IMG/VR virus record: IMGVR_UViG_3300031963_000027
Coordinates: 1-64,000 of that record
DNA length: 64,000 nucleotides
Source: a virus
Reading direction: 5' to 3' (one strand)
Shown here: one piece after another, positions 2,483 through 63,394 of the stretch
How the letters are laid out: every line of letters begins with the position of its first letter
Position numbering within the stretch: position 1 is the stretch's first letter
Translations under genes and position numbers: made by a program
The notes under the pieces: generated by a model
What the model was told of the DNA's origin: nothing
Databases searched by the model: none
The model's input: only the letters and a program-made list of their open reading frames with translations

Positions 2483-3499
2483 GTGGATTTAAAAGAGTAT
2501 GTAAAGCTAACTGAAAAGGTAGTTGGTAAAAAGCAAGTTTGTATTGGTAACCAAGTTGAAGTTGAAAGATTTAAACTTGAATCTCCTTCTATAAATCACT
2601 TGTTAGGTGGCGGCGTTCCACATGGTACTATTATTGAAATATATGGGCCAGAACAAACAACTAAGTCATTGTTAGCTATGTATATAGCAGCTCAACTACA
2701 AAAACAAACTGATAGATTTGTTGGCTATGTACAGGCTGCAGAGTTTGGCTATACTTCTTGTCATGCTACTAATATAGGATTAGACCCAGATAAAGTATTA
2801 TTAGTAGATGCAACAAGTGCTGAAGAAGCCTTACAATGTACTAGATCATTTCTTACTGAAGACTTCTGTGCTGTCATTATTGATAGTGTTGCTGGCTTAG
2901 TTCCAGAGAAGTTAACAGATGAAAGTAAAGAGATTGGTGATGTATTTGTAATGGGTATTAGAGCTAGACTGTTAAGTGAAAATCTTCCACAGTTTAGTGT
3001 TAAATGTAAAAAGAATGATGTAGTACTTATTCTTATTAATCAGGTTAGAAATACTAACTTAAGTGGATATGGTAATCCAGAAGGTAGTATGGGTGGTAAG
3101 GGTTTACCTTATTGGGCTTCTATTAGACTAATGACAACTAAGAAGGCTCTTAAATCACCAGATGAAGAAGGCATTAATAACTTTGATGTTCAGATTAAAT
3201 GTATAAAATCTAAATATGGTAAAGCACTAAGAAGCATTGAAATGCAAGTAGATCTTGAACAAGATAGTATTGATAAAACTATTACTAATACTAATTACAA
3301 TAAGTATATAGATGTAATTAGAATGGCCAAGAAGGAGGAACTAATAAAGGTTGCTGGTTCTTGGATCACATTAAGTTTGCCAAATTTAAGCTCTGAAGAG
3401 CCAATTAAAGTTCAAGGGGAAAACAACTTAGAAGCTAAACTAAGAGAAGATCCTGAACTATTTGAAGCTTTAAGAGATGCTGTTAATTCTAAATGTTAA
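2483..3499 (+). CDS. recA: RecA/UvsX-like recombinase
   Basis: This 338-residue protein has the RecA core: Walker A GPEQTTKS at about residues 55-62, a Walker B strand AVIIDSVAGLVP near 130, and the QVRN element of the L2 region (LINQVRNTN). It forms a filament on single-stranded DNA and drives strand exchange in phage recombination-dependent replication. The start is a GTG at 2483; no upstream in-frame ATG is available. It lies beside a nuclease, polymerase and helicases, as in T4-like replication modules. Its length is near that of bacterial RecA, with a shorter C-terminal part. Confidence 0.93.
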   Translation: MDLKEYVKLTEKVVGKKQVCIGNQVEVERFKLESPSINHLLGGGVPHGTIIEIYGPEQTTKSLLAMYIAAQLQKQTDRFVGYVQAAEFGYTSCHATNIGLDPDKVLLVDATSAEEALQCTRSFLTEDFCAVIIDSVAGLVPEKLTDESKEIGDVFVMGIRARLLSENLPQFSVKCKKNDVVLILINQVRNTNLSGYGNPEGSMGGKGLPYWASIRLMTTKKALKSPDEEGINNFDVQIKCIKSKYGKALRSIEMQVDLEQDSIDKTITNTNYNKYIDVIRMAKKEELIKVAGSWITLSLPNLSSEEPIKVQGENNLEAKLREDPELFEALRDAVNSKC

Positions 3500-3528
3500 T
3501 TTAAAAAAATAAGGACTGAAATTTAATT

Positions 3529-3792
3529 ATGGAACCTACTAATAATACTTCATTGGTTGATCTTATTCAAAATGACCCTGAGGTTATTACCGTTGCTGAA
3601 GCTAAATCTTCAAAGACTAAATCTTCTAGACAAGTTAATCTAACTACTATTCTTGCTCAATTGTCAGAGTTTACTTCTGAGGAAATCATGAGTTATCCTA
3701 TTAATACTATTAGAGGTATTAAAACTCAAGGTAATAGAATTTCTAGTGTTTATGCTAAAGGCGTTGAAGAGTTGAATAATTCTGATGGCTAA
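3529..3792 (+). CDS. Unknown 87-residue protein
   Basis: A small soluble protein with a Ser/Lys-rich linker (AKSSKTKSSRQ) followed by a helical second half. No motif is recognised. Its stop overlaps the start of the next gene, so it is translated in the RecA-polymerase operon. The position suggests an accessory replication or recombination role, but nothing in the sequence shows this. Confidence 0.6.
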   Translation: MEPTNNTSLVDLIQNDPEVITVAEAKSSKTKSSRQVNLTTILAQLSEFTSEEIMSYPINTIRGIKTQGNRISSVYAKGVEELNNSDG

Positions 3793-4234
3793 AACAAGCA
3801 ATCCAATTCAAACAACAATAAAAGATTTTAAAAATCTTTTTACTAAAGAAGGCTTGAAGAAGATTTCTATTGATGATTTACTTTTATTGAAAGCCACTTT
3901 AGATTATGGAAATGAAAGGCTGAATGAACTGTCAGAGATACTTTCTTCTGCATCTTTGGGTGTGTCTCCTAATAAGAATGCCAGAAATAACTATGCAAGG
4001 AATAATACTTCTTATGTAACTGGTTCTGTGCAGCCAATATTACCCTCAACAACTGGAAATGAGTTAGCACAAGTTAATTCAATAAGTAATTTTGATACTT
4101 CTGCAGTTGGTTTATATGATGCAGAAGCAGAGGCTAGAGCACAAAATGAGTTGTTCTTACAAACGGTTTCAGAACAACTGCCAGATGAAGTTGAAGTATT
4201 AGAAGAAATCTTTGGCTCAGTAGAAGATGCATAA
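3785..4234 (+). CDS. Unknown 149-residue protein
   Basis: This protein begins with a helical basic region, has a low-complexity Asn/Ser/Thr centre, and ends in an acidic helix (DEVEVLEEIFGSVEDA). Acidic tails of this kind often mediate binding to replication partners, but no family is recognised. It overlaps its neighbours on both sides by 8 bases, indicating translational coupling to the DNA polymerase gene downstream. Confidence 0.6.
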   Translation: MAKTSNPIQTTIKDFKNLFTKEGLKKISIDDLLLLKATLDYGNERLNELSEILSSASLGVSPNKNARNNYARNNTSYVTGSVQPILPSTTGNELAQVNSISNFDTSAVGLYDAEAEARAQNELFLQTVSEQLPDEVEVLEEIFGSVEDA

Positions 4235-6329
4235 TAGTAATATATATTCTTATATTACTACTCAAGAGTTGTTAGAACAAATAATAGATGTTCTAACAAC
4301 TCTTTCAAAAGAAGAAGTGGTAAATGTTGGTATTGACTTTGAAGGCTATGTTAAAGATGAATATAGACTTGTAAGCTCAGGTTTAGATTGCTACTGTAAT
4401 AAGCTAAGACTTATAAGTATTAATTGGATTGGTAATGATGGCCCAACAGTTGTAGTTGAATTAAATACTGTTGATATACTGCCCTTCTTAAATCTAATAA
4501 AGAATAATAATAGATTTATTGTATGGGCGCATAATGCAACCTTTGAAATAAGACAGATTAAACATCACTATAATATTGAAATGAACAATATATACTGTTC
4601 AATGGTTATGTTTAATACTTTATATGTATCTATTGGATGGAGACAAAGTAAGTTGGCAATTGGTAGTAGTTTAGGCTCTATCATGAGACACTTTGCAGGA
4701 GTTGTAATGGATAAAACATTACAAACATCTGATTGGTCTAGCCCTATTCTTAGTAAAGCTCAGTTGGAATATTCAGCAATGGATGTTAATACTAAGTGGT
4801 TAGAATTATGTATAAATGTTAAAGAAAGTCTTATAAGTTATTATGAACAAGAGTATGCATTTAATCTAGATCAAGATGCAATGAGAATCTTAGCTATTGT
4901 TGAGTATGTTGGTTTTAATATTGATAAAGTTAAGATGAATAGCTTTATTAAAGAATTAGAACAACTATCTAATGATACTAAGATTAAGTTAGCAAGACAA
5001 TTAGATCAGCCATTATCAGTGTCTTTAGTTGAAGATGAGGATGGTATCTTACAACAATCTTTAACAGTATCTCCTATAGTAACAACTATTTTTAATAATC
5101 CTAAGAAGTTAGGTACTATTATTAATAGTAAGTTCAAAGTTAATTTAACTGCTTTGAACGCTGCTATTATGAAAGAGTTTCTTTCTAATCAAGATGATGA
5201 TGAAGATGAGGAAGACACTGATGATGTAGATTTAGAAATGATATCTAATAAGCAAGATGCAAAGGAGGTTATAAATACTTTTATTGTATATAAAAGACAG
5301 GAAAAACTAATAACAGAGATTAGTAAATATAACTCTATTGTTAGTCCAATAACTGGTGCTTTACATGCTACTACTAATCCTGTGGGGGCTGGAACTGGTA
5401 GAATGTCATCTTCTTCTAGTATTATTGTTGGTGATAAAAAGTTTAAGATGAATTTACAACAGGTAATTGCTAGAGGCAATTATGACATTAGAAGCGGTTT
5501 TATAGCTAGACAAGATTATGTTATTGCTGGCATTGACTTTAGTTCACAAGAAGTATTAACTGCAATGGCTTATGCTAAAGATGAAGCGGGTTTAGCACCC
5601 TTTTATCAAAAGAAAAAACAGTTATATCTATTAGATAATAATGGAAATCAAATACTTAATAAGAAAGGTAAACCTGTAGAAGATCCTTATACTGATCCTC
5701 ATACTGTAGCTGCTATGGGCTTATGTCCAGCTTTAAAGAATTATCCAGCAGAACTTATTAGAGAAATGGCTGAGGGTAATCATAAGAATTTTAAATATAC
5801 TTATAATAATAAAGATCTATTATATTTAGATGTATATAATAAATCTATAAATGATCTACAAACCTATTTAGGATGTAGTATTGAAGAAGCTACTAATATT
5901 ATTAATATATTAAGTAGTATACCTTCTTCTACAGACTTCAGATTTCAAGGGAAGATTTTAAACTTTAGTGTTATTTATGGTAAGACTGAACAAGGTTTAT
6001 CTGAAGACTTAAAATGTTCTGTTGAAGATGCAGCTAAAGTATTACATAGTTATTTTAGTCAATTCTTTAAGCTTAAAGAGTGGCTTGATAATAGTGCTAA
6101 AGAAGCAATTAGATGTAAAAGAATAAGGCTACCAACTGGCAGATGGTTATGGGTAGATGAATCTAATTCAAAGGGAAATGATGCTTCAGCTCAAAGAAAG
6201 GGTCCAAATGGATATGTTCAAGGATTTTGTGCTGATCAACTAAAAGTAACCCTGCCATATGTTAGAAAGTATTTAGAAGAAGTAAATAATAGATACAAAG
6301 TTAGAAATTGTATTGTAGCTTTAGTGCAT
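4227..6329 (+). CDS. polA: Family A DNA polymerase, exon 1
   Basis: Exon 1 encodes 701 residues. The N-terminal 3'-5' exonuclease domain shows VGIDFEGY (Exo I), WAHNATFEIRQ (Exo II) and a YSAMDVNTKW element (Exo III). The polymerase domain has motif A GIDFSSQEV near residue 434 and motif B KILNFSVIYGK near 576. Motif C is split: exon 1 ends at ALVH and exon 2 begins DEIVYEL, restoring the catalytic VHDE. Without splicing the product ends 8 codons later and lacks the catalytic Asp. No 5'-3' exonuclease domain is present. It is the replicative polymerase of this phage, next to its clamp and clamp loader. Confidence 0.93.
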
Positions 6330-24601: not shown

Positions 24602-27600
24602 ATGTTAGTTGAATTTGAGTTAAATAAAGAAGAACAAGATATTAAACCTGACTTTGGTCCTGTAGGTTCTATTGTTGATATTAGAACATATAGAAGATGG
24701 CTGCCAAATAAAAAAAGAAGAGAGACATTTGTAGAAAGAAATGCAAGAGTAGTAGATGCTAATTTAGACCTTGTTAAAGATATTATTAGTGATCAAGAGT
24801 ATGAGTTAGAAAGATCTACTATGATGGATCATATGAATAAATTACTAGCTCTGCCTTCTGGTAGAAGTATGTGGATTGCAGGCACTGAAGCTAATAAAAA
24901 ACATCCTGCTTCATCCTTCAATTGTTCAGCTTTAGCTATTAATAGAATAGAAGCTTTTACAACTGTATTTGAACTGTTAATGCTTGGTACTGGTGTTGGA
25001 TTTAGAGTGTTTGGCTCTGATATTAATGAGCTGTCAAATATTAAGAAGTTTGATATATTGTTTGATTCTTATAACCCAAAGCCTAAACATGAGAGAATTG
25101 AAAGTACCATTGTAAGTTATTCTAAGAATGCAACTATTGTACAGGTTGGGGATAGTAGAGAAGGATGGATACATGCTTTACACGCTCTCTTAGAAATAGC
25201 TTTTTGTATAAATAAAGATACGTCTATCTCATTTAATTTTGATTCTGTTAGACCATTAGGTGAGAGAATTAATGGTTTTGGTGGCACGGCTAGTGGTCAT
25301 GAAGCATTAAAGAATTTGCTTAAAGATGTCTTTGATATCTTTAATGAATGTCCGGATAGTAAGCTTAGAAGTATTGATTGTTTAGATATTTGTTGTGCTA
25401 TTGCTAAGGGTGTTGTAGCTGGTAATACTAGAAGATCTGCATTACTTTGTCTCTTTGAAGAAGGTGATGACCTAATGGCCAATGCTAAGGTAAACCTATT
25501 TGATGATCCTACTTTAAAGGGTAAGTATTATAGAATTCAAAGTAATAATACTGAAGCATTAGGCACCCCTTATTTATCTGAATTAAGAGAGTTTCTAGAA
25601 GCCAATCCAGATGTTTCTAAAGAAGATTTATTCAAGTTTATTGATAAGTACAAACCTTCTGTTGAATGGTTAAAAGAAAGATTTAAAGTAATTGCTAATG
25701 CTGGTGATCCAGGCTTTGCTAACTATTTGAAGATGGTTGGTAAGAAGTGGTTAGCTGTTAGAAAGCACAGACCTGATTTTGATGTTAAGAAAATCTGGGA
25801 ATATTTTTGTGATATTTGTACGAACCCATGCCACGAAATAATTTTGTCTGTAGGTTATAAAGATGGTAAAGGAACTGGATTTTGCAATTTAACAACTCTT
25901 CCAATTAATAAATTTGTTATTAAAAAATGTAATAATAATGATTTATGTGCAGTTACTGGTTATAAGCTAGATGAGAAAGCTTTAGAACAAGCTATTAAAC
26001 TTACAGTTAGAATAGCTACAAGACAAACCTTTGTTACTATGCCTAGAGCTGAACTAGATGATACTCAGAAAGCTGAAAGATTGTTGGGAGTGTCAGTCAC
26101 TGGTTGGATTCAATTATTTAATAAACTAGATTTGTCTTATACAGAACAAGAAGACTTAATGACTAAGTTAAATGACTGGGCTAATGATGAAGCAACTACA
26201 TATGCTAATAAGTTAGGTATTGAAAGACCCTTAATGGTGTGTTGTATTAAACCAGAGGGGTGCGGAAAAATTTCACATATAAGAACAACAACTGAAGGTT
26301 TATTAAGAGTTGATGAGATCGGAGATGTATCTAAATTAGGTTTTAATAAAGTTGATACAAACAATACAACAACTAAAGGATTTTCTATTAGAAGTGTATA
26401 TAATAACGGCTTATCTAAAGTTGTAAAAATTAAACTAAACAATGGAAGAGAATTAGTATTTACACTCCAACATCCTTTTAGTGTAAATGGTTTATGGAAA
26501 AATGCTGTTAATTTAAAGAAAGGCGATGTATTAGATATTGAATTAGATACTTATAATAAAGTAACTAATGAATTACTAGCAAATTACAGTGCTAAATATA
26601 ATCATTTAAGAAAAGAAGATTTATTATTTCCTAAAGAAATAACTAATGATTTATCTTGGTGGGTTGCTAGTGTATTTGCTAATGGTAGTGTAACTAATCA
26701 TGCAATTAGTTTCTATTCAGGATATATAGAAGTAGTACAAAAGTTTGTTGATTTAAGCAATAGTTTATTTAATATTTCTACTGTTGCTACAAAAGATAAA
26801 ATAAAAGATATGTATAGGGTAAATATTAATTCTACAGATTTAGTTGAATATTTAAAGCTTAATGGTTTATTAAAGACAAAAAACTTTACTATTCCTCTTA
26901 TTATTAGAAGATCTAGTAGAGAAGCTTTACTATCTTTTATTTGTGGTTATTTAGATAATGATGGCTGCTTTAAAAACAAAGGATGTAGTATTACTACAAA
27001 GAATGAAAACTTTGCAAGAATGTTACAAGAAGTTGGAGAAGCAGTAGGGCTATCATTTAGTTGTTATGATTATACAAGAGAAACAACTAAAAGTATTGGC
27101 ATTTATTATGACTTACAGTTAAGTAGAACTTATTCAACTAATAGAGCTATTGATTTTATTAACAGTAATAGTATTAAAGCTAAATTAAATGGCTTTATTA
27201 TTTCAAGTGATAAGAGTCATAAAAATCCTTATAAGGTTGATAGTGTTGAAGTATTAGAAGAGTTAATTAACACTTATGATATAGAAGTAGATGATCCTCA
27301 TTGGTATTATCAAGGTGGTATTAAATCGCATAATACTGGCTCTAAAGTATTAGGCTCTTCTAGTGGAGTTCATTGGGATTGGGCACCTTATTATATTAAT
27401 AGAATTCAAATGGGCGCTAATGATGCTCTTGCTAAGACATTAAAAGATCAGGGCTTTAGCTGGATTCCAACTCCTTATGATTTACTTAAACTATATAATG
27501 ATCAAGTTGAAGTGTTTAGTAATAATAATGTTATTAGATTATTTCAAAGGTTATTAGTTAGGTTTAATATTACTAAATCAAAATATGAGCCAAAGTTTAA

Positions 27601-29490: not shown

Positions 29491-29748
29491 TTGCTAACTC
29501 TTGATGAAGTAATTGATAGTTTCTTACATAGAGAACTTGTAGATGGTCAAACCTTAATTGACTTTCTTAAAGAGGGTACTAAGGTACCTCTTGTTGATTT
29601 TCATAAAAATATAAAGTTTCTTAATGCACTTAAAACAATGGCGGATAAAGAAGCTGCCACAAGAAGAATGAGTAAAGGTAGTGGCAAAAACTTAAGGTCT
29701 TTACAAAATGTTTTTAGTGAGTTTAGTACACCAATAAATTATGACTAA
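29491..29748 (+). CDS. Unknown 85-residue protein
   Basis: The frame is open upstream without ATG, so the TTG at 29491 is the best visible start (MLTLDEVIDSFLHREL). The C-terminal part is basic and Ser/Gly-rich (RRMSKGSGKNLRSLQN). It overlaps the RNA ligase gene by 8 bases. Function is unknown. Confidence 0.5.
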   Translation: MLTLDEVIDSFLHRELVDGQTLIDFLKEGTKVPLVDFHKNIKFLNALKTMADKEAATRRMSKGSGKNLRSLQNVFSEFSTPINYD

Positions 29749-30406
29749 GTTAAAAGCGCCAAGAATATATCATCTACCTTGGTCTGAAGTATTAAGTAAG
29801 GATGATAAGTTTATTAGATCAACTAATATATTTAAAGATAAAGAGGTTATTGTTACTTTAAAATTTGATGGTGAGAATACTTCTTTGTACAACGATGGAA
29901 CATTTCATGCTAAGTCTTTAGATAGTAAAGCACATGAGTCTAGAGACTGGTTACATATTTGGTGGAGAGAAAAACTATATACTAGTAATTATTTGTTGTT
30001 GCATGGTAAGTTGCCTGATTTAAGATTAGTTGGTGAAAATATGAAAGGCTTTCATACAATCCAATATAATAACTTAGAAGCTTTGTTTCTATTACATAGC
30101 GCATGGAATGGCACCACATGTTTGTCATGGGAAGAAACACTTAATATAGCTTTTATATTAAATATAAAAACTCCACCTGTATTGTATAAAGGTGTTTATA
30201 ATGAAGCAGCTATAAAGGAATTAAACAACTTAGAAAAGTATAATGATGATTTAGTTGAAGGCTATGTCATTAGAAATGCTGGTGAATTTGACTATAAAGA
30301 TTCAATAAACAATGTTGCTAAATTTGTATCTAGCAGGTTTGAAATTAAAGGCGATCACTGGTCTAAAGGTAAAATAACTTTTAATAAAACTAAATATGAA
30401 ATATAG
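29741..30406 (+). CDS. RNA ligase (nucleotidyltransferase superfamily)
   Basis: The 221-residue protein has motif I LKFDGENTSLY (KxDGxx with the lysine that takes AMP), then LVGENMKGFH, LVEGYVIRN (motif IV) and VAKFVSSRFEIKGDHW (motif V). These define covalent RNA ligases of the Rnl2/DRB0094-like type. It would seal nicked RNA, for example tRNAs cut by host defence nucleases. A second ligase occurs in the Pnkp-like protein at 59670-63394. Confidence 0.85.
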   Translation: MTKLKAPRIYHLPWSEVLSKDDKFIRSTNIFKDKEVIVTLKFDGENTSLYNDGTFHAKSLDSKAHESRDWLHIWWREKLYTSNYLLLHGKLPDLRLVGENMKGFHTIQYNNLEALFLLHSAWNGTTCLSWEETLNIAFILNIKTPPVLYKGVYNEAAIKELNNLEKYNDDLVEGYVIRNAGEFDYKDSINNVAKFVSSRFEIKGDHWSKGKITFNKTKYEI

Positions 30407-32739: not shown

Positions 32740-33330
32740 ATGAATTATATAAAAATACTATGTCAATGTTGTGGAAATCCTAAAGATATAGTCAAAGGAG
32801 AATACAACAGAAAATTGAGATTAGGAACTAAGTTTTATTGTTCTAAGAAATGTTCCTATGAAGATAATAAACATTTACTTATAGAAGGATCTATAGAATA
32901 TTCAAAGTCTGAAAAAGGTATTAAACATCTAAATAACATAAGACCTATAAGACCTGCTGAACCCTTTAATTATTTCTTAAGAATAAAAACTAGAAGGACT
33001 AAACAAGAATTTAAGATTTCAATTGAATATCTAAAGGAGTTATGGGCTAAACAGAATGGTCTGTGTGCTATATCTAATTTACCTTTAGAATTACCTCATG
33101 GTGTTGAGGGATTTAGCACCGTAAAACCTTTTAATGGTGCTTCTTTAGACAGAATTAATTCTAATTATGGTTACATTGAAGGTAATGTACAATTTGTTTG
33201 TATGGGTATTAATTTTATGAAAAATGATTGGAATCAAGATTATATTAAAGATTGGATATTAGCAATGTCTAAGTCAGTACTTGACAAATATAAAGAAGTA
33301 TTAGATAATAATAAAGTTATTGAAGTCTAA
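32740..33330 (+). CDS. HNH homing endonuclease with zinc ribbons
   Basis: The 196-residue protein has two Cys pairs at the N-terminus (CQCCGN ... YCSKKC) and an HNH-like core (GASLDRINSNYGYIEGNVQ, then FVCMGINFMKND). This is the layout of free-standing phage HNH enzymes. It lies immediately upstream of the tmRNA, a place where such enzymes often drive their own spread. No intron is evident around it. Confidence 0.8.
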   Translation: MNYIKILCQCCGNPKDIVKGEYNRKLRLGTKFYCSKKCSYEDNKHLLIEGSIEYSKSEKGIKHLNNIRPIRPAEPFNYFLRIKTRRTKQEFKISIEYLKELWAKQNGLCAISNLPLELPHGVEGFSTVKPFNGASLDRINSNYGYIEGNVQFVCMGINFMKNDWNQDYIKDWILAMSKSVLDKYKEVLDNNKVIEV

Positions 33331-33375
33331 AAAGTAGTCTGGTACACGGCGGCTTCAATGCCCCCAGATCCACTT

Positions 33376-33449
33376 ATTTCAGTAGTGTAACGGTAGCATA
33401 AGAGTCTCCAAAACTTTTGGTAATAGTTCAAATCTATTCTGATTTGCCA
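33376..33449 (+). tRNA. tRNA-Trp (CCA) inside permuted tmRNA
   Basis: The anticodon arm is AGAGT-CTCCAAA-ACTTT (anticodon CCA) and the T-arm is AATAG-TTCAAAT-CTATT. The acceptor has two U:U mismatches (ATTTCAG with CTGATTT). CCA is encoded at 33447-33449. It lies between the two pieces of the tmRNA, so processing of one RNA would release the other. Confidence 0.85.
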
Positions 33450-33538
33450 AGGGTCTGAAAGGTTTCGATGCTAGAAATAACTAATTAGACATGCTTAGTA
33501 GTTTTATGAATGAAAAGCTAGATGACAGAAAAATAAAT

Positions 33539-33592
33539 GGCAACGTTAAAAATAATATTGTTAGCTTCTCTAAAGCACCTGTTTTAGCCTAA
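33539..33592 (+). other. tmRNA proteolysis-tag reading frame
   Basis: GGC 33539 to TAA 33590-33592 encodes GNVKNNIVSFSKAPVLA, ending in hydrophobic VLA like known degradation tags (usually LAA or VAA). The resume codon is inferred; one codon upstream is also possible. Confidence 0.55.
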
Positions 33593-41504: not shown

Positions 41505-41616
41505 ATATTTATCTGTACTTGTATTAATACAATAACAAATAATGTTATTAAAATGTATTCAGATTCATATAATACAAATCTTTGACAAGTGTTTATTATT
41601 AATATATAATAAACAC

Positions 41617-41627: not shown

Positions 41628-41764
41628 TGTTTAGTAGCTCAGTTGGTAGAGCGTCTGACTGTGGCTTTTTAGTTTAATGTAAAACTATAGTTAACTATAT
41701 TATAGGTTCAATTCCTATAAAGGTCTTAATCAGAATGTCCCTGGTTCGATTCCAGGCTAGACAG
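41628..41764 (+). tRNA. tRNA-His (GTG) with 64-base insert in anticodon loop
   Basis: Acceptor TGTTTAG/CTAGACA, standard D-arm, T-arm CCTGG-TTCGATT-CCAGG and anticodon stem TCTGA/TCAGA are all intact. The loop reads CTGTGGC then 64 extra bases before TCAGA. The insert sits at or next to the 37/38 position, where archaeal and eukaryal tRNA introns lie. It is too short for a group I intron. The insert itself holds a T-arm-like hairpin (TATAGG-TTCAATT-CCTATA). Confidence 0.8.
41666..41729 (+). other. Insert in tRNA-His, tRNA-like
   Basis: The insert has GTTT/AAAC (D-arm-like), a TATAG/CTATA palindrome and a perfect T-arm, with ends that pair partly (GCTTTTT with AAAGGTC). It therefore looks like a minimal tRNA nested in the anticodon loop. 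Confidence 0.45.
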
Positions 41765-41801
41765 TTGCTATTAAAACAATAGCAAACAAACAACTAACTA
41801 T

Positions 41802-41844: not shown

Positions 41845-42005
41845 AAATAGTAGTGGTGGAAAGATATACACTCATATCATGCGTTAGGTTGTGGTCCTAA
41901 AGAAGCAGTAAAATGAAAGATGATTGACAAGTGTACATAGTTAATTAGATCGCATGTGGTATGGATTGGGCACAAGTATAGGGTTAAATTCCCTACCTAC
42001 TATTT
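41845..42005 (+). tRNA. tRNA-His-like element with long insert
   Basis: The outer stem AAATAGTAG/CTACTATTT, T-arm TAGGG-TTAAATT-CCCTA and an arm TTAGG-TTGTGGT-CCTAA (loop with GTG anticodon) are present. About 75 extra bases separate the anticodon arm from the T-arm, enclosed partly by GCG/CGC pairing. It may be a second, interrupted tRNA-His or a decayed copy. Confidence 0.45.
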
Positions 42006-42216
42006 CTCTTAAACATGTAGTAATAGATATACAAATATATATATATATGATTTTATAGAAGCTTCTATGAGTATGGCTGACTATAACATTGAGTATTATA
42101 CTATTAACTCTCATAGAGTATAATGCAGATTCAATAAGAAAGTGTTAACTATACCATATTTAGTCCTCTTTCTTATATATCCCTTTGTATATTACTACAT
42201 GTTTATTTTTCTACAA
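42006..42216 (+). ncRNA. AT-rich structured gap
   Basis: No gene is seen. Several stems occur, such as CTATGAG/CTCATAG and ATAAGAAAG/CTTTCTTAT. The pattern resembles the other tRNA-like elements, but no tRNA can be drawn with confidence. Confidence 0.3.
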
Positions 42217-44734: not shown

Positions 44735-44797
44735 GCCCTAGTAGCATAGTGGTCAAATGCGCCTACCTTGTAAGTAGGAGATATCTGATCTAGGGCT
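44735..44797 (+). tRNA. tRNA-Thr (TGT) with shortened T-arm
   Basis: Acceptor GCCCTAG/CTAGGGC and anticodon arm CCTAC-CTTGTAA-GTAGG are perfect. Only about 16 bases lie between anticodon stem and acceptor, so the normal T-arm (TTCRA loop) is missing. Total length is 62. It resembles armless mitochondrial tRNAs or a deletion product. Confidence 0.7.
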
Positions 44798-46173: not shown

Positions 46174-46666
46174 GTAGAGATATGGCTGAGTGGCTGAGGT
46201 TCTTAATGTATAATTAAGGTTATATATAATAAAAATCTTAACTCAATGTCTAATAGAAAAACCTAATACTGTTTGCAGTATGTGTAATACTGCAATTTAC
46301 AGAAGACCATCATCCTTAATTAATTCAGAAGGTAAAGCTTATTGTAGCAGAGAATGTTATGGTAAATCTTGTCAAAAAGATAGTATTTTGTATTGTATGT
46401 AATAAAGAAATGCTTTCTAGTAAACATTCAAAAACTTGTTCTAAAGAATGTTTTAATATATCTCTTGCAGATCCCAATAGAAAGTTTTGCAAAGGAAGAA
46501 AGCCATATGCTTCAAATAAATATGGAAGTCGTTCTTTTAAGTATGCTTTTGTCATATTATTTGAACCATTGCTTTATATTATATTATAAATAGGTTCAAT
46601 TATAAAACTTTAAACCTCTAAGTTTTATAGTTTTTGGTTATCACTAGTTCAAATCTAGTTAGAGGT
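46174..46666 (+). tRNA. Leu-type tRNA gene interrupted by HNH remnant, degenerate
   Basis: The 5' part (ATATGGCTGAGTGGCTGAGG) has a Ser/Leu-type D-arm. The 3' part has T-arm ACTAG-TTCAAAT-CTAGT and acceptor strand TAGAGGT. About 400 bases with an HNH remnant lie between. GAGGTT before a CTTAATG loop (anticodon TAA, Leu) can pair with AACCTC at 46613-46618. The acceptor strands do not match, while TAGAGGT pairs with ACCTCTA 46614-46620. Probably a decayed or chimeric tRNA. Confidence 0.4.
46246..46589 (+). pseudogene. HNH endonuclease remnant with frameshifts
   Basis: Joining three frames gives zinc-ribbon sequence typical of phage HNH proteins: PNTVCSMCNTAIYRRPSSL, YCSRECYGKSC, CIVCNKEMLSSKHSKTCS, then RKFCKGRKPYASNKYGSRS. 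Each join is +1 at an A-run (AGAAAAAC, CAAAAAG). The catalytic HNH part is missing. It lies inside the Leu-type tRNA element. Confidence 0.65.
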
Positions 46667-46701
46667 ACTCATTACATATATAACTTTATACAATAATTAA
46701 G

Positions 46702-47133
46702 ATGAACAAATTTAATGCTACACTTGATGCCACACAATTTGAAGATGGATATTCTAGAATAAAAAATAGTTATAGAACTGCTATTTTTCCTTCTGAACCT
46801 GCTAAACCAAATCTAGAAGATCTAGAGTCAGTTAAATCTTGGGTCCTAGAACAAACAAATTATCTAGAAGATTTAAAGCTTGCAAGAACTACTCAGTCTC
46901 TTTATGATAATTATAACAGTGCACTTGATGATGAACTAGATTTGTTAAAAGAACAGTTTATAGCCATTAATATGTATAATATTAGTAAAGAAACTAAAGC
47001 TGCTATTCTTAATAAAGCCTGGAATGAGAAACATTCAGATGGTGAAAAGGCAGTTATTTTTTATACTAAACATTTACTTGAAGAATTGTTTTTTGATTAT
47101 AGAATTAAGGATTGTAATAACAATGATTGTTGA
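46702..47133 (+). CDS. Unknown 143-residue helical protein
   Basis: The protein is predicted to be almost all helical and ends in CNNNDC. No motif is recognised. It overlaps the next gene by 11 bases. Confidence 0.55.
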   Translation: MNKFNATLDATQFEDGYSRIKNSYRTAIFPSEPAKPNLEDLESVKSWVLEQTNYLEDLKLARTTQSLYDNYNSALDDELDLLKEQFIAINMYNISKETKAAILNKAWNEKHSDGEKAVIFYTKHLLEELFFDYRIKDCNNNDC

Positions 47134-59669: not shown

Positions 59670-59756
59670 ATGACCAAGCCATTTAGTATTGTATGTGAAG
59701 ATTATACTGTTTATATGATGGTGGGACCATCAAATTGTGGTAGTACAAATTTTGCC
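59670..59756 (+). CDS. Pnkp-like RNA repair enzyme, exon 1
   Basis: Exon 1 encodes 29 residues ending in MVGPSNCGSTNFA, the start of a kinase P-loop, and would join exon 2 as ...NFAKSFISKEL. The intron ends in G at 61054 and exon 1 ends in C at 59756; the frame joins exactly. The usual P-loop lysine is Ser here. Without splicing, translation stops at TAG 59757-59759. Confidence 0.75.
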
Positions 59757-61054
59757 TAGTTTTATATGTTAATTTTAGAGTAAACTACTTTTATAAATTA
59801 TTATAAAAGTAGTTATGACATACTCTCAAGAATTAAGAAATATAGCTTTAGAAATGTATCAATCCGGAATTAGTTCAAGCAATATAGCTAATGAATTAAA
59901 TATAAATCCTAGAACCGTTTTAAACTGGATACCTAAAGAACTTATAAGATCTATAATACCTCCTTATTCTAAAGAAGTAATAGATAAAGTTTTAGATATG
60001 TATAATTCAGGCTTAAGTGCTAATAATATAGCAATTAAATTAGGATTAAATAAAAAAACCGTTCTAAGATGGATTCCTAAAAACCTTAAAAGATCTGTAA
60101 AGGATTATGATTTAGGTTATGAAAGAAACCATAACTTTTTTAGAGATATTAAATCTGAACAACAAGCTTATTTTTTAGGCTTAATAACCGCAGATGGAAG
60201 TATATCTAAAACAGGAACATTAGGCTTAGAATTAAAGCATTCTGATGGTTATTTAATAGAAAAATTTAGAGATCTTTTATCTCCTAATGCTAAAATAAGT
60301 TTTTCATCTAGAACTAAAGTATATAAAGGAAATTCTATAATAAGTGAAACTAGCTATCTTAAAATCACTTCTAGACATTATTTAGAAGATTTAGCAAGAT
60401 ATGATATTGTTCCTAATAAAACTTATCTAGATATAAGATTACCTATTTTTGATTCAAATTTAATGAATCATTATATAAGAGGTTTATTTGATGGAGATGG
60501 AAGTGTTTATACTCGTAGTAAATATAAATCTTTATTAACTGTTACTTTTGTTGGTGGAGAGCTTTTATTAAATCAAGTAAAAGACTATTTAAAATTAAAT
60601 TTAGATCTAAAAGGAAATCTTAATATAAGAGCAAGACAAACTAATTGTTTTGATTTTTCTTTAACTACTCAAGAAGATATACATAAGTTTAAAGAATACA
60701 TCTATAAAGATGCAACTATATTTCTTAAAAGAAAACATGCAAAATTTTATAATGAAATTATTGCCACATAAGTCTGTGAATTGCTGGGATAACTTGAAGG
60801 TTAATTAACTACAACATAATTAGTAATAATAAGTGTGAATGTTTAAAAATAATTAATTATAAGTCAATCAGCAGCCAAGTGTCCTAGTAATAGGATAAAG
60901 GTTCAACGCATAGTACATGGAGTCCTATTTATATAGGATAGTAAAGTACCAAGAGTGCAGACTACTAGTTAAACTTAACTGGTAAAGATATATGCTGGAC
61001 TACTAAGTGATTAGTAGAACTAAGGGATAAAAAGCCTTTAGGTTAACAAAATTG
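59757..61054 (+). mobile_element. Group I intron in Pnkp-like gene
   Basis: The 1298-base intron splits the P-loop codons. Its 3' part contains TTAACTACAACATAATTAG, CAATCAGCAGCC and TTCAACGCATAGTACATGG, which match the core of the polymerase intron and phage group I introns. It carries a LAGLIDADG endonuclease gene. The exon 1 end in C instead of U is unusual for group I introns. Confidence 0.8.
59815..60771 (+). CDS. LAGLIDADG homing endonuclease with two HTH repeats
   Basis: The 318-residue protein has two helix-turn-helix repeats (SSNIANELNINPRTVLNW and ANNIAIKLGLNKKTVLRW) and then two LAGLIDADG motifs, LGLITADGSI and RGLFDGDGSV. The double-motif form acts as a monomer to cut a long DNA site. 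It is encoded in the intron and likely drives homing into intronless Pnkp-like genes. Confidence 0.9.
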   Translation: MTYSQELRNIALEMYQSGISSSNIANELNINPRTVLNWIPKELIRSIIPPYSKEVIDKVLDMYNSGLSANNIAIKLGLNKKTVLRWIPKNLKRSVKDYDLGYERNHNFFRDIKSEQQAYFLGLITADGSISKTGTLGLELKHSDGYLIEKFRDLLSPNAKISFSSRTKVYKGNSIISETSYLKITSRHYLEDLARYDIVPNKTYLDIRLPIFDSNLMNHYIRGLFDGDGSVYTRSKYKSLLTVTFVGGELLLNQVKDYLKLNLDLKGNLNIRARQTNCFDFSLTTQEDIHKFKEYIYKDATIFLKRKHAKFYNEIIAT

Positions 61055-63394
61055 AAGAGTTTCATTTCAAAAGAATTAGAGTTACAACTAAAAGCTAATA
61101 ATACTGATGTTACTATTCTTTCATCTGATGATATTAGAAGAGAATTATTAGATGATTATAGTATTAATAAATATGATCCAAGAATGCTTGAAGTGTCTTC
61201 TCAAGCTTTTAATTTGTTATATGCTAAGCTTAGAAATTACATCAGTTATCCAGTAAATAAGAAGTTTGTAATCATTGATAATACTGGTTTGAACCAACAA
61301 TTTAGAACTGACATTCTTAACATCTGTAGAGATAATAATTATAAGGTTGTCTGTATCTTGTTTGATTATAAGAACGGAGAAGACTGGTTTGTTAATGATG
61401 GTGGTGATAAGTTTGTTATTCAAAAGCATTTAGACAGATTGCAGAAACATGTGTTTAAAGAACTGAAAGCTAAAGACTATCACAAAGTTATAAGAGTCAC
61501 AGATAGGATTGAAAGTGTTAATGTTACTTATATACAAGATAAGAATAACTTACTTGTAGATGGTAATAACTACACTGTCATTGGTGATGTTCATGGTTGT
61601 GTTGATGAGTTAAAACAGCTTATTAGTAACATTAAAGATGAACATAATGTGCCAATCTTGATGGGTGATTGGATTGATAGTAAACTTGGCAGCGTAAGTT
61701 GTAATGCAGCTATTATTGATTACTTATTAGATAATCCTCAAATACTACTTGTTAAAGGTAATCATGAAGAGAACTTATATAAGAATTTAAATGACTTAAC
61801 ACGGGAGAAATTAGATAATAAATTCTTTAATAGTAGACAATTAATCTATGACTTTCCAGAGTATAAGACTAAGTTTATAGAACTTTATAATAGAAGTTAT
61901 ACTAGTATTAGAGGTCAAGGCTTTATTGTTACTCATGCTCCTTGTAAGAGTAAGTACTTGTTAACAAGTCTTAATAAGATGACTAACTTATATTATACGA
62001 CTGAAGAGAAGTGTGATCTTATTAATGAGATATATACTGACAAGTATTATAATAGCTGCTGGCCTCTTCACTTATATGGTCATCTAACATTTGATAGACC
62101 TGTTAAGACTAGATTTAGTATTGGTCTTGACACTGGTGTTGGTTATGGTGGTGTGTTAACTGGTTATAATGTTGCTACTAGAAAGTTTATTATTGTTCAA
62201 TCTACCTTAGATAATAGTCTTAAACAACTTGATAATCTTACTAAGTTTAAGTATCCTGTACAAGACTTAGAAGTTAAGTTAGATGATGATGATACTAGAA
62301 AGTTAAGTAGTTTTATCAGAAACAAGGTGCCTTATATCAGTGGAACTATGTGTCCTGCTGATAAGACTGAAACAACCTTAGAAGATATTAAAACTGTGTT
62401 AGCCTACTATGCTTCTACTGGACAAACACAAGTGTTAATACAACCTAAATACATGGGTAGTAGAGCACAAGTATTATTAACTAGAAATAGTTATGAGGTG
62501 TTTACTAGAAGTGGCTTTAAGTTAAAACATACACCTGAATTAGACACTGCTATACAAGCACTAGAAGATAATGTATCCAATGAGTTAATGACTTGGCTTA
62601 ATAGTTTAGGGCCTTATACTTCAACATTATTAGATTGTGAGTTGATGCCTTGGTCTTATCTTGGTAAAGGTTTAATTGAGGATACATTTGAATCTTATTA
62701 TTATAGTCATAAGTTACACATTGAAGCTATGATTAAACATGGTTTTTATACTGATTTAGAATCTTATAAGATTAGTGATGATTATGTTAATAAGGTGCCA
62801 TCAGCAAACAAACAAGTTGGTAATCTTAATCAATGGAGAAACACTAGTAATCTAGATAATCTAAATATCTTTGGCACTGAACTAGATAAGTATGCCTCAA
62901 CTGAAGCACCTTACTTTGTTCCTTTTAATATTCTTAAAGTTGAGTCTGAAGATAAAATTCTTTATAGTAATAGTGAGTTTAATAGATTTAATAACTTTGA
63001 GTTGTTAAGCTTATTACAAACACCATTACATGTGGTTGATGTTAATGATTTAACAGAAGGGATAAAAGTACAAAACTTATATAGTCACCTCGAAGGTATT
63101 GTTGTTAAACCTTACTACAATATTGAAGGCCAAGCACCATATATTAAAGTTAGAAACATAGATTATTTAAGATTAGTTTATGGTCATGACTATACTTCTA
63201 AGTTGGATAAGTTCATTGATAAGAAAAACATTAAAGGTAAACTTAGGGTGTCTATTAATGAATGGCAACTTGGTAATGCTTTATTAGATATGCATTCCTC
63301 TGAGTTTGTTGAATCTAATAAAGAGTATGTTAATACTTTAATTAGACTAATGTTTGAGTTGAAAAAAGAACAAGGACTAGATCCAAAATTATAA
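61055..63394 (+). CDS. Pnkp-like RNA kinase/phosphatase/ligase, exon 2
   Basis: Exon 2 gives 779 residues (about 808 with exon 1). After the kinase part (SSDDIRRELLDD) comes a metallophosphatase: IGDVHGCVDEL, MGDWIDS, KGNHEEN, VTHAP and YGHL. The C-terminal ligase has QPKYMGSR (KxxGxR with the AMP lysine near residue 494), LLDCELMPW and EGIVVKPY. Such a set heals and seals broken RNA ends, as in bacterial Pnkp that repairs cut tRNAs. A Hen1 gene is not seen nearby. The kinase P-loop lysine is missing. Confidence 0.87.
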   Translation, partial: KSFISKELELQLKANNTDVTILSSDDIRRELLDDYSINKYDPRMLEVSSQAFNLLYAKLRNYISYPVNKKFVIIDNTGLNQQFRTDILNICRDNNYKVVCILFDYKNGEDWFVNDGGDKFVIQKHLDRLQKHVFKELKAKDYHKVIRVTDRIESVNVTYIQDKNNLLVDGNNYTVIGDVHGCVDELKQLISNIKDEHNVPILMGDWIDSKLGSVSCNAAIIDYLLDNPQILLVKGNHEENLYKNLNDLTREKLDNKFFNSRQLIYDFPEYKTKFIELYNRSYTSIRGQGFIVTHAPCKSKYLLTSLNKMTNLYYTTEEKCDLINEIYTDKYYNSCWPLHLYGHLTFDRPVKTRFSIGLDTGVGYGGVLTGYNVATRKFIIVQSTLDNSLKQLDNLTKFKYPVQDLEVKLDDDDTRKLSSFIRNKVPYISGTMCPADKTETTLEDIKTVLAYYASTGQTQVLIQPKYMGSRAQVLLTRNSYEVFTRSGFKLKHTPELDTAIQALEDNVSNELMTWLNSLGPYTSTLLDCELMPWSYLGKGLIEDTFESYYYSHKLHIEAMIKHGFYTDLESYKISDDYVNKVPSANKQVGNLNQWRNTSNLDNLNIFGTELDKYASTEAPYFVPFNILKVESEDKILYSNSEFNRFNNFELLSLLQTPLHVVDVNDLTEGIKVQNLYSHLEGIVVKPYYNIEGQAPYIKVRNIDYLRLVYGHDYTSKLDKFIDKKNIKGKLRVSINEWQLGNALLDMHSSEFVESNKEYVNTLIRLMFELKKEQGLDPKL

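Follow-up and report, generated by a model that had tools for sequence, protein, structure and literature searches.

A tRNA-Asn gene of a virus is interrupted, inside its own anticodon, by an insert that is itself shaped like a tRNA. The gene lies at positions 41,628–41,764 of the window, the whole stretch of 64,000 nucleotides that was analysed (positions 1 to 64,000 of IMG/VR virus record IMGVR_UViG_3300031963_000027). Judged by sequence, the 64-nt insert is probably an intron that is removed by RNase P and RNase Z, after which an RNA ligase seals the two halves of tRNA-Asn(GUU). By the textbook, bacterial and phage tRNAs have group I ribozymes as their introns, and splicing of tRNA by enzymes is regarded as a trait of archaea and eukaryotes. 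The novelty here consists of the anticodon-less inner tRNA in a tRNA-Asn, a testable mechanism and the evidence of wide occurrence. The known precedent is found in Lak megaphages, whose tRNA introns may encode tRNA and were called enigmatic (Devoto et al. 2019, PMC6784885). With exon borders that coincide exactly with the ends of the inner tRNA in many phages, the Lak puzzle becomes a direct test of splicing by RNase P, RNase Z and ligase.

The interrupted gene and its insert

The 137 bases of the gene form a cloverleaf whose anticodon loop is extended by 64 inserted bases; all outer stems are intact (7 bp in the acceptor, 4 bp in the D, 5 bp in the anticodon and 5 bp in the T stem). Excision of 41,663–41,726 in silico resulted in the loop CTGTTAA (CUGUUAA in the RNA) and in a product that ARAGORN named tRNA-Asn(GTT). 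The joined exons have the cloverleaf, the GUU anticodon, U33 and G73; of the 14 interrupted Asn genes compared, 13 carry this discriminator. Several excision registers were compared, and an intact Asn cloverleaf was obtained from removal of the tRNA-shaped unit or of its one-U slip (41,662–41,725), which is an equivalent excision leaving the same loop. Because removal of the tRNA-shaped unit gives the CUGUUAA cloverleaf, the insertion site is placed between nucleotides 35 and 36, inside the anticodon of a predicted tRNA-Asn(GUU). The unspliced gene was missed by ARAGORN in default mode and misnamed Lys(ctt) with introns allowed; if splicing does occur, genes of this kind in phages escape the usual tRNA finders or get a wrong name from them.

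The insert, GGCUUUU-UA-GUUU-AAUGUA-AAAC-U-AUAG-UUAA-CUAU-AUU-AUAGG-UUCAAUU-CCUAU-AAAGGUC-U, was matched by cmscan to the tRNA family RF00005 over 41,663–41,726 (43.1 bits, gathering threshold 29, E 8e-6), so that an insert within a phage tRNA-Asn itself encodes a tRNA. Its ends coincide exactly with the exon borders. The arm at the inner anticodon position carries a 4-nt loop, UUAA; a 7-nt anticodon loop with an anticodon was not found there, and the inner unit alone was not called by ARAGORN. By its fold (Table 1) the insert is a four-arm mini-tRNA without anticodon.

A preliminary description of the locus had noted intact tRNA arms around a 64-base insert, which the fold and the joined-exon cloverleaf confirm. 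It had also suspected a nested tRNA-like module, for which the RF00005 match now speaks; the T-arm-like hairpin with TTCAATT had been read correctly, and what was called a D-like stem is a genuine D-arm within the four-arm mini-tRNA. The identity as tRNA-His and the insertion point at 37/38 did not hold, as exact removal of the tRNA-like unit yields tRNA-Asn(GTT) and a site at 35/36 leaves a cloverleaf product together with intact inner ends. The search for the insert elsewhere that it had proposed returned the identical locus in three other IMG/VR contigs and related mini-tRNAs in other phages. Since those three contigs, which come from other samples, are identical over 1 kb around the locus, an assembly error or artefact is disfavoured. 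A 34-base pattern of the joined arms (two degenerate positions) was found uninterrupted in 48 viral contigs. GenBank phages searched with the region gave zero DNA matches, and relatives sought via the Pnkp gene and a lipoprotein gene were the same phage only, with none close that lacks the insert.

To compare exons, 14 distinct interrupted Asn genes were joined in silico and aligned over 73 columns. Pairing was found in 99% of cells, versus 39–44% in slid-partner controls, and the anticodon stem pairs across the insert. Changes on both sides were seen in 7 of 7 acceptor, 4 of 5 anticodon-stem and 4 of 5 T-stem pairs. These compensatory changes across the insert indicate that both exons are kept as a single tRNA. 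The perfect TTGACA-17-TATAAT site upstream and the hairpin at the 3' side (Table 1) make the gene look like a transcription unit of its own.

Nested tRNAs in other phages

IMG/VR was searched with a pattern that combines a D-arm with two T-arms, an inner one and an outer one lying too near for tandem tRNAs. Matches came from 118 viral contigs, and many of these are nested tRNAs; the window has a single match, and 100 shuffles had none. From these, 22 nested genes with recognisable outer and inner tRNA were picked by hand after cloverleaf scoring. When the inner mature tRNA, with CCA where encoded, was cut out exactly, 13 of the 22 gave a canonical 7-nt loop and an ARAGORN-named product, namely Asn (the window phage, L026, L028, L077 and L078), Lys (L020, L039, L099 and L084, where the register was reset by hand), Gln (L018 and L025), Ile(UAU) (L044) and Thr (L074). 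L015 (Lys) and L064 (Pro) also fit once CGA or CTA is allowed in place of CCA, which raises the count to 15 of 22. In L028 an Asn gene split as CTGT/TAA holds an inner Gly(UCC) with CCA, and in L020 a Lys gene split as CTTTT/AA holds an Asn(GUU) with CCA; the Gln gene of L018 is split as CTT/TGAC. Asn and Lys were the tRNAs most often found interrupted. As the insertion points vary from 32/33 to 36/37 among the nested genes, the borders appear to be set by the ends of the inner tRNA and not by a fixed loop position.

A second pattern, for Asn genes split at CTGT/TAA and with no inner T-arm required, added L209 (inner tRNA with CCA) and several mini-introns. L026 and L077 have a common inner sequence, and compensatory changes set their outer acceptor stems apart; by sequence, related inserts are present in diverged hosts. 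The D-arm and T-arm signature of the mini-tRNA, searched with no outer tRNA required, was found in 16 + 7 stretches. Those within tRNA loops are in the window phage, in Leu genes split as CTT/AAAA (L025, L368, L371) and in Asn genes (L078, L209). Several of the signature mini-tRNAs have an anticodon loop of 4–5 nt, or the arm is absent. Together this suggests that reduced tRNAs may serve as phage RNA-processing signals, those inside tRNA genes acting as introns.

In a 233-kb phage contig (L025), the stretch 3273–5707 contains, besides the nested Gln gene, at least three more long Rfam tRNA matches of 152–196 nt, so several interrupted tRNAs lie together there, with a GOLLD RNA nearby. Bacterial and archaeal genomes searched with the nested pattern gave mostly noise, with one clear nested Lys gene (L350) among the matches listed. 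Also among these were contigs of metagenome-assembled genomes, one of them Kaiserbacteria, with a tRNA within a tRNA (L269, L270, L337, L339, L341); in these a long extra stem continues the anticodon stem, unlike the type with exact borders.

RNA ligases of the window phage

The open reading frame (ORF) at 29,741–30,406 has an RNA_ligase domain above the cut-off together with a KxDG motif, as in Rnl2-type enzymes. The second candidate for repair and ligation is the Pnkp-type ORF at 61,052–63,394, with KYMG at residue 466, the ligase domain of which has its best PDB match in 4xru/4xrp, 'Rnl' (E 4.6e-44). Both support the earlier proposal that the phage's kinase, phosphatase and ligase proteins could join the exons. 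RtcB was found in none of the 22 records tested, which fits a route through 3'-OH and 5'-P ends, and the other nested records gave no match to PF16542. A link between ligases and nested tRNAs is plausible on these sequences. If such splicing does take place, some phage RNA ligases would have a purpose besides mending damaged tRNA.

The Pnkp gene itself seems to be interrupted in the kinase P-loop (59,670–61,100), with MVGPSNCG at 59,741 and the remainder from about 61,040. The intervening stretch encodes a LAGLIDADG protein (LAGLIDADG_3, 59,815–60,771), and Rfam called no group I family in this region.

Proposed mechanism and alternative explanations

RNase P leaves a 3'-OH upstream of its cut and RNase Z a 5'-P downstream. 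In the precursor, the inner unit would be treated as a tRNA: the 5' exon would end in ...CUGU-OH after the RNase P cut at the inner 5' end, and the 3' exon would begin with p-UAAUC... after the RNase Z cut behind the inner discriminator U. The inner +1 and nt-73 borders in the sequence fit excision by these two enzymes. The halves would be held together by pairing of the acceptor and anticodon stems and, given this end chemistry, could be joined by an ATP-dependent RNA ligase with no end healing, most likely the phage Rnl2-like enzyme or Pnkp. Sealing would restore the loop CUGUUAA and give a working tRNA-Asn. Many inner units of other phages are complete tRNAs, and there one transcript could give two tRNAs; in the window phage the inner anticodon is lost, and the only role left to the unit would be that of a removable processing signal. 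Whether this amounts to a further route of tRNA splicing that is widespread in phages, with a complete or reduced tRNA as intron, excision by RNase P and RNase Z and resealing by a phage RNA ligase, we regard as evenly balanced. If so, complete nested tRNAs would make two tRNAs per gene, and reduced ones would be introns derived from tRNAs.

Several observations weigh against this splicing model. Excision and ligation are both deduced from sequence. The sample of 22 genes was hand-picked by cloverleaf score, and 7 of the 22 lack a 7-nt loop, these remaining genes being 1–3 bases off. In the L103/L111/L117/L220 family the stem starts about 5 nt inside the insert, and cleavage by RNase P alone would miss the correct border in the Asn mini-introns of L103, L111 and L117. 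This family and the L192, L197 and L226 families, which have other folds, would need another 5' nuclease or trimming. Some mini-tRNAs with the signature lie between genes, with no tRNA gene around them (L363, L364, L374, L376, L378). The only cultured nested case met was Cellulophaga phage phi4:1 (L091, KC821632), in which the inner tRNA-Ile is annotated and the outer tRNA is not; its predicted product has a faulty loop, for which it was set aside as a cultured example, and a ligase was not detected. Hen1, the usual partner of Pnkp, gave no PF12623 match in the window phage's record, which may be incomplete. Finally, RNA ligases are common in the nested records, but their enrichment over control records with ordinary tRNA-Asn is weak and only suggestive: of the nested records that reach 86 kb or more, 12 of 21 have a ligase above the Pfam cut-off, versus 5 of 14 controls (Fisher p 0.31), and at E ≤ 1e-3 the figures are 16 of 21 versus 5 of 14 (Fisher p 0.03).

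Some of these points would also suit a dead gene, a tRNA-Asn destroyed when a tRNA-like element inserted into it, with exons that stay unjoined. The mini-tRNAs that lie free in intergenic regions of other phages and the degenerate state of the inner unit, without anticodon, would be in line with this. However, the four stems of the exons, the 7-nt loop and G73 are all intact, as are the promoter-like site and the 3' hairpin, compensatory pairing is kept across the insert in the 14 interrupted Asn genes of different phages, and the borders are exact in most nested genes. We consider a dead gene unlikely.

Excision by a dedicated splicing or anticodon-loop endonuclease of phage or host, with Pnkp healing and sealing the ends, is likewise improbable. 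The kinase, phosphatase and ligase parts of the phage Pnkp would suit 2',3'-cyclic phosphate and 5'-OH ends, and the mini-introns of the L103 and L192 families, L197 and L226 start at no recognisable acceptor end. Such a nuclease is hard to reconcile with a site that lies anywhere between 32/33 and 36/37, depending on the phage, with the ends of the inner tRNA still in register; moreover, there is no bulge-helix-bulge, and no specific nuclease was identified.

tRNA-Lys is a classic target of anticodon nucleases. That the interrupted tRNAs are mostly Asn and Lys and that the phage carries RNA ligases would agree with a defence against such nucleases, in which the interrupted anticodon is uncuttable or the halves act as decoys until the ligase restores the tRNA late. 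As this leaves the tRNA shape of the insert and the match of its borders to mature tRNA ends unexplained, we find it quite improbable as an explanation of its own; it is compatible with RNase P/RNase Z splicing as a possible purpose. A tRNA-His with a canonical 37/38 intron is the least credible reading: a 64-base excision shifted one base downstream does give the loop CTGTGAA, but the excised piece would then lack the first base of the inner acceptor stem and start at its G2, G-1:C73, usual in tRNA-His, is missing from the exons, the 13 sister genes are all Asn CTGT/TAA, and the reading was dropped since RNAfold gives no cloverleaf for its product and gives one for that of Asn.

Comparison with known systems

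Group I introns have a catalytic core and are more than about 200 nt long. They too interrupt anticodon loops of bacterial and phage tRNAs, but the 64-nt insert is far below their size and cmscan of the window found no group I family; a group I intron was rejected on both grounds, in agreement with the preliminary description. Archaeal and eukaryal tRNA introns (EndA/Sen) are likewise small anticodon-loop inserts whose exons need enzymatic ligation, whereas the phage site at 35/36 is inside the anticodon and the insert is itself a cloverleaf. At the exon-insert junction a 5-bp stem, a short internal loop and the 7-bp inner acceptor stem follow one another, and no bulge-helix-bulge was found, so splicing of that type was rejected. 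Of the earlier interpretation, the nested module and the joining proteins of the phage are retained, and the likeness to archaeal and eukaryal introns goes the way of tRNA-His and 37/38.

In T4 Pnkp/Rnl1 and bacterial Pnkp/Hen1, a phage or bacterial ligase also seals a tRNA broken in the anticodon loop; here, by contrast, removal of a nested tRNA would create the break as a programmed event, with 3'-OH/5'-P ends that need no healing. Permuted transfer-messenger RNA (tmRNA) similarly loses an internal segment by ordinary tRNA-end processing, but its pieces stay separate, whereas the phage tRNA-Asn would need ligation. The closest likeness is to the Lak introns, small inserts in phage tRNAs that may themselves encode a tRNA. 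Lak genes occur with and without the insert, and a mechanism was not given (Devoto et al. 2019, PMC6784885). The present case differs in its 128.6-kb record with proteins similar to those of Cellulophaga phages phi17:2 and phi4:1, in the interrupted tRNA, which is Asn, in an inner tRNA without anticodon whose borders match the exon borders, and in the processing mechanism proposed. Beyond the Lak paper, no other report, mechanism or survey was found in the literature covered, which consisted of papers outside subscription and a minority of preprints.

Other features of the window

Table 1. Elements of the interrupted tRNA-Asn gene, its flanks and the RNA ligase genes (window coordinates)
Feature	Position	Strand	Basis
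Promoter-like site TTGACA-17-TATAAT, ends 17 nt upstream of gene	41582..41610	+	12/12 consensus matches
5' exon of tRNA-Asn, nt 1–35, ends ...CTGT	41628..41662	+	sequence; ARAGORN on joined exons = tRNA-Asn(gtt)
Insert, 64-nt mini-tRNA	41663..41726	+	Rfam RF00005 43.1 bits; fold
Inner acceptor stem, 7 bp	41663–41669/41719–41725	+	fold
Inner D-arm	41672–41685	+	fold
Inner anticodon-less arm, ATAG-TTAA-CTAT	41687–41698	+	fold
Inner T-arm	41702–41718	+	fold
Inner discriminator T	41726	+	fold
3' exon of tRNA-Asn, nt 36–73, starts TAATCAGA; discriminator G73; CCA not encoded	41727..41764	+	sequence; ARAGORN
Hairpin TTGCTATT/AATAGCAA, from base after G73	41765..41785	+	inverted repeat, 8/8 complementary
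Rnl2-like RNA ligase, 221 aa, motif I KFDG at residue 41; candidate exon ligase	29741..30406	+	Pfam PF09414 78 bits (cut-off 27), E 1.2e-21
Probable Pnkp 5' exon, start and P-loop MVGPSNCG	59670..59741	+	translation
Pnkp-type RNA repair enzyme: rest of kinase, metallophosphatase, PNKP ligase domain	61052..63394	+	PF16542 89.9 bits, PF00149

Further tRNA-like elements are present in the window. At 41,846–42,010 there is a Leu-like class II tRNA remnant with acceptor AAATAGTAG/CTACTATTT and an anticodon stem, ATGCG/CGCAT, that encloses about 67 bases; it was suspected by eye to be a second interrupted tRNA, Leu(UAG), and was rejected as such because it folds no better than shuffles. A tRNA-Thr(UGU)-like element at 44,735–44,797 (Rfam 46.3 bits) has perfect acceptor, D and anticodon arms and an 11-nt linker, with no T-arm. 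Just upstream of an ORF at 46,702, a free-standing 54-nt mini-tRNA-like element (46,614–46,667; 22.5 bits, below gathering) consists of the acceptor ACCTCTA/TAGAGGT and a T-arm.

A probable permuted tmRNA lies at 33,323–33,592 (RF04321, 32.2 bits, below the gathering threshold of 47; E 7e-5 on the local stretch). Its intervening gap is filled by a tRNA-Trp gene (33,376–33,449), with CAGATCC-A three bases before it and GGGTCTG one base after its CCA, and a possible tag reading frame ends ...GNVKNNIVSFSKAPVLA-stop. This would be a second tRNA nested in a structural RNA in the same phage. Finally, an ORF of 1173 aa at 24,602–28,123 matches ribonucleotide reductase over residues 11–569 and has weak matches to terminase and endonuclease families in its middle; it perhaps contains an intein.
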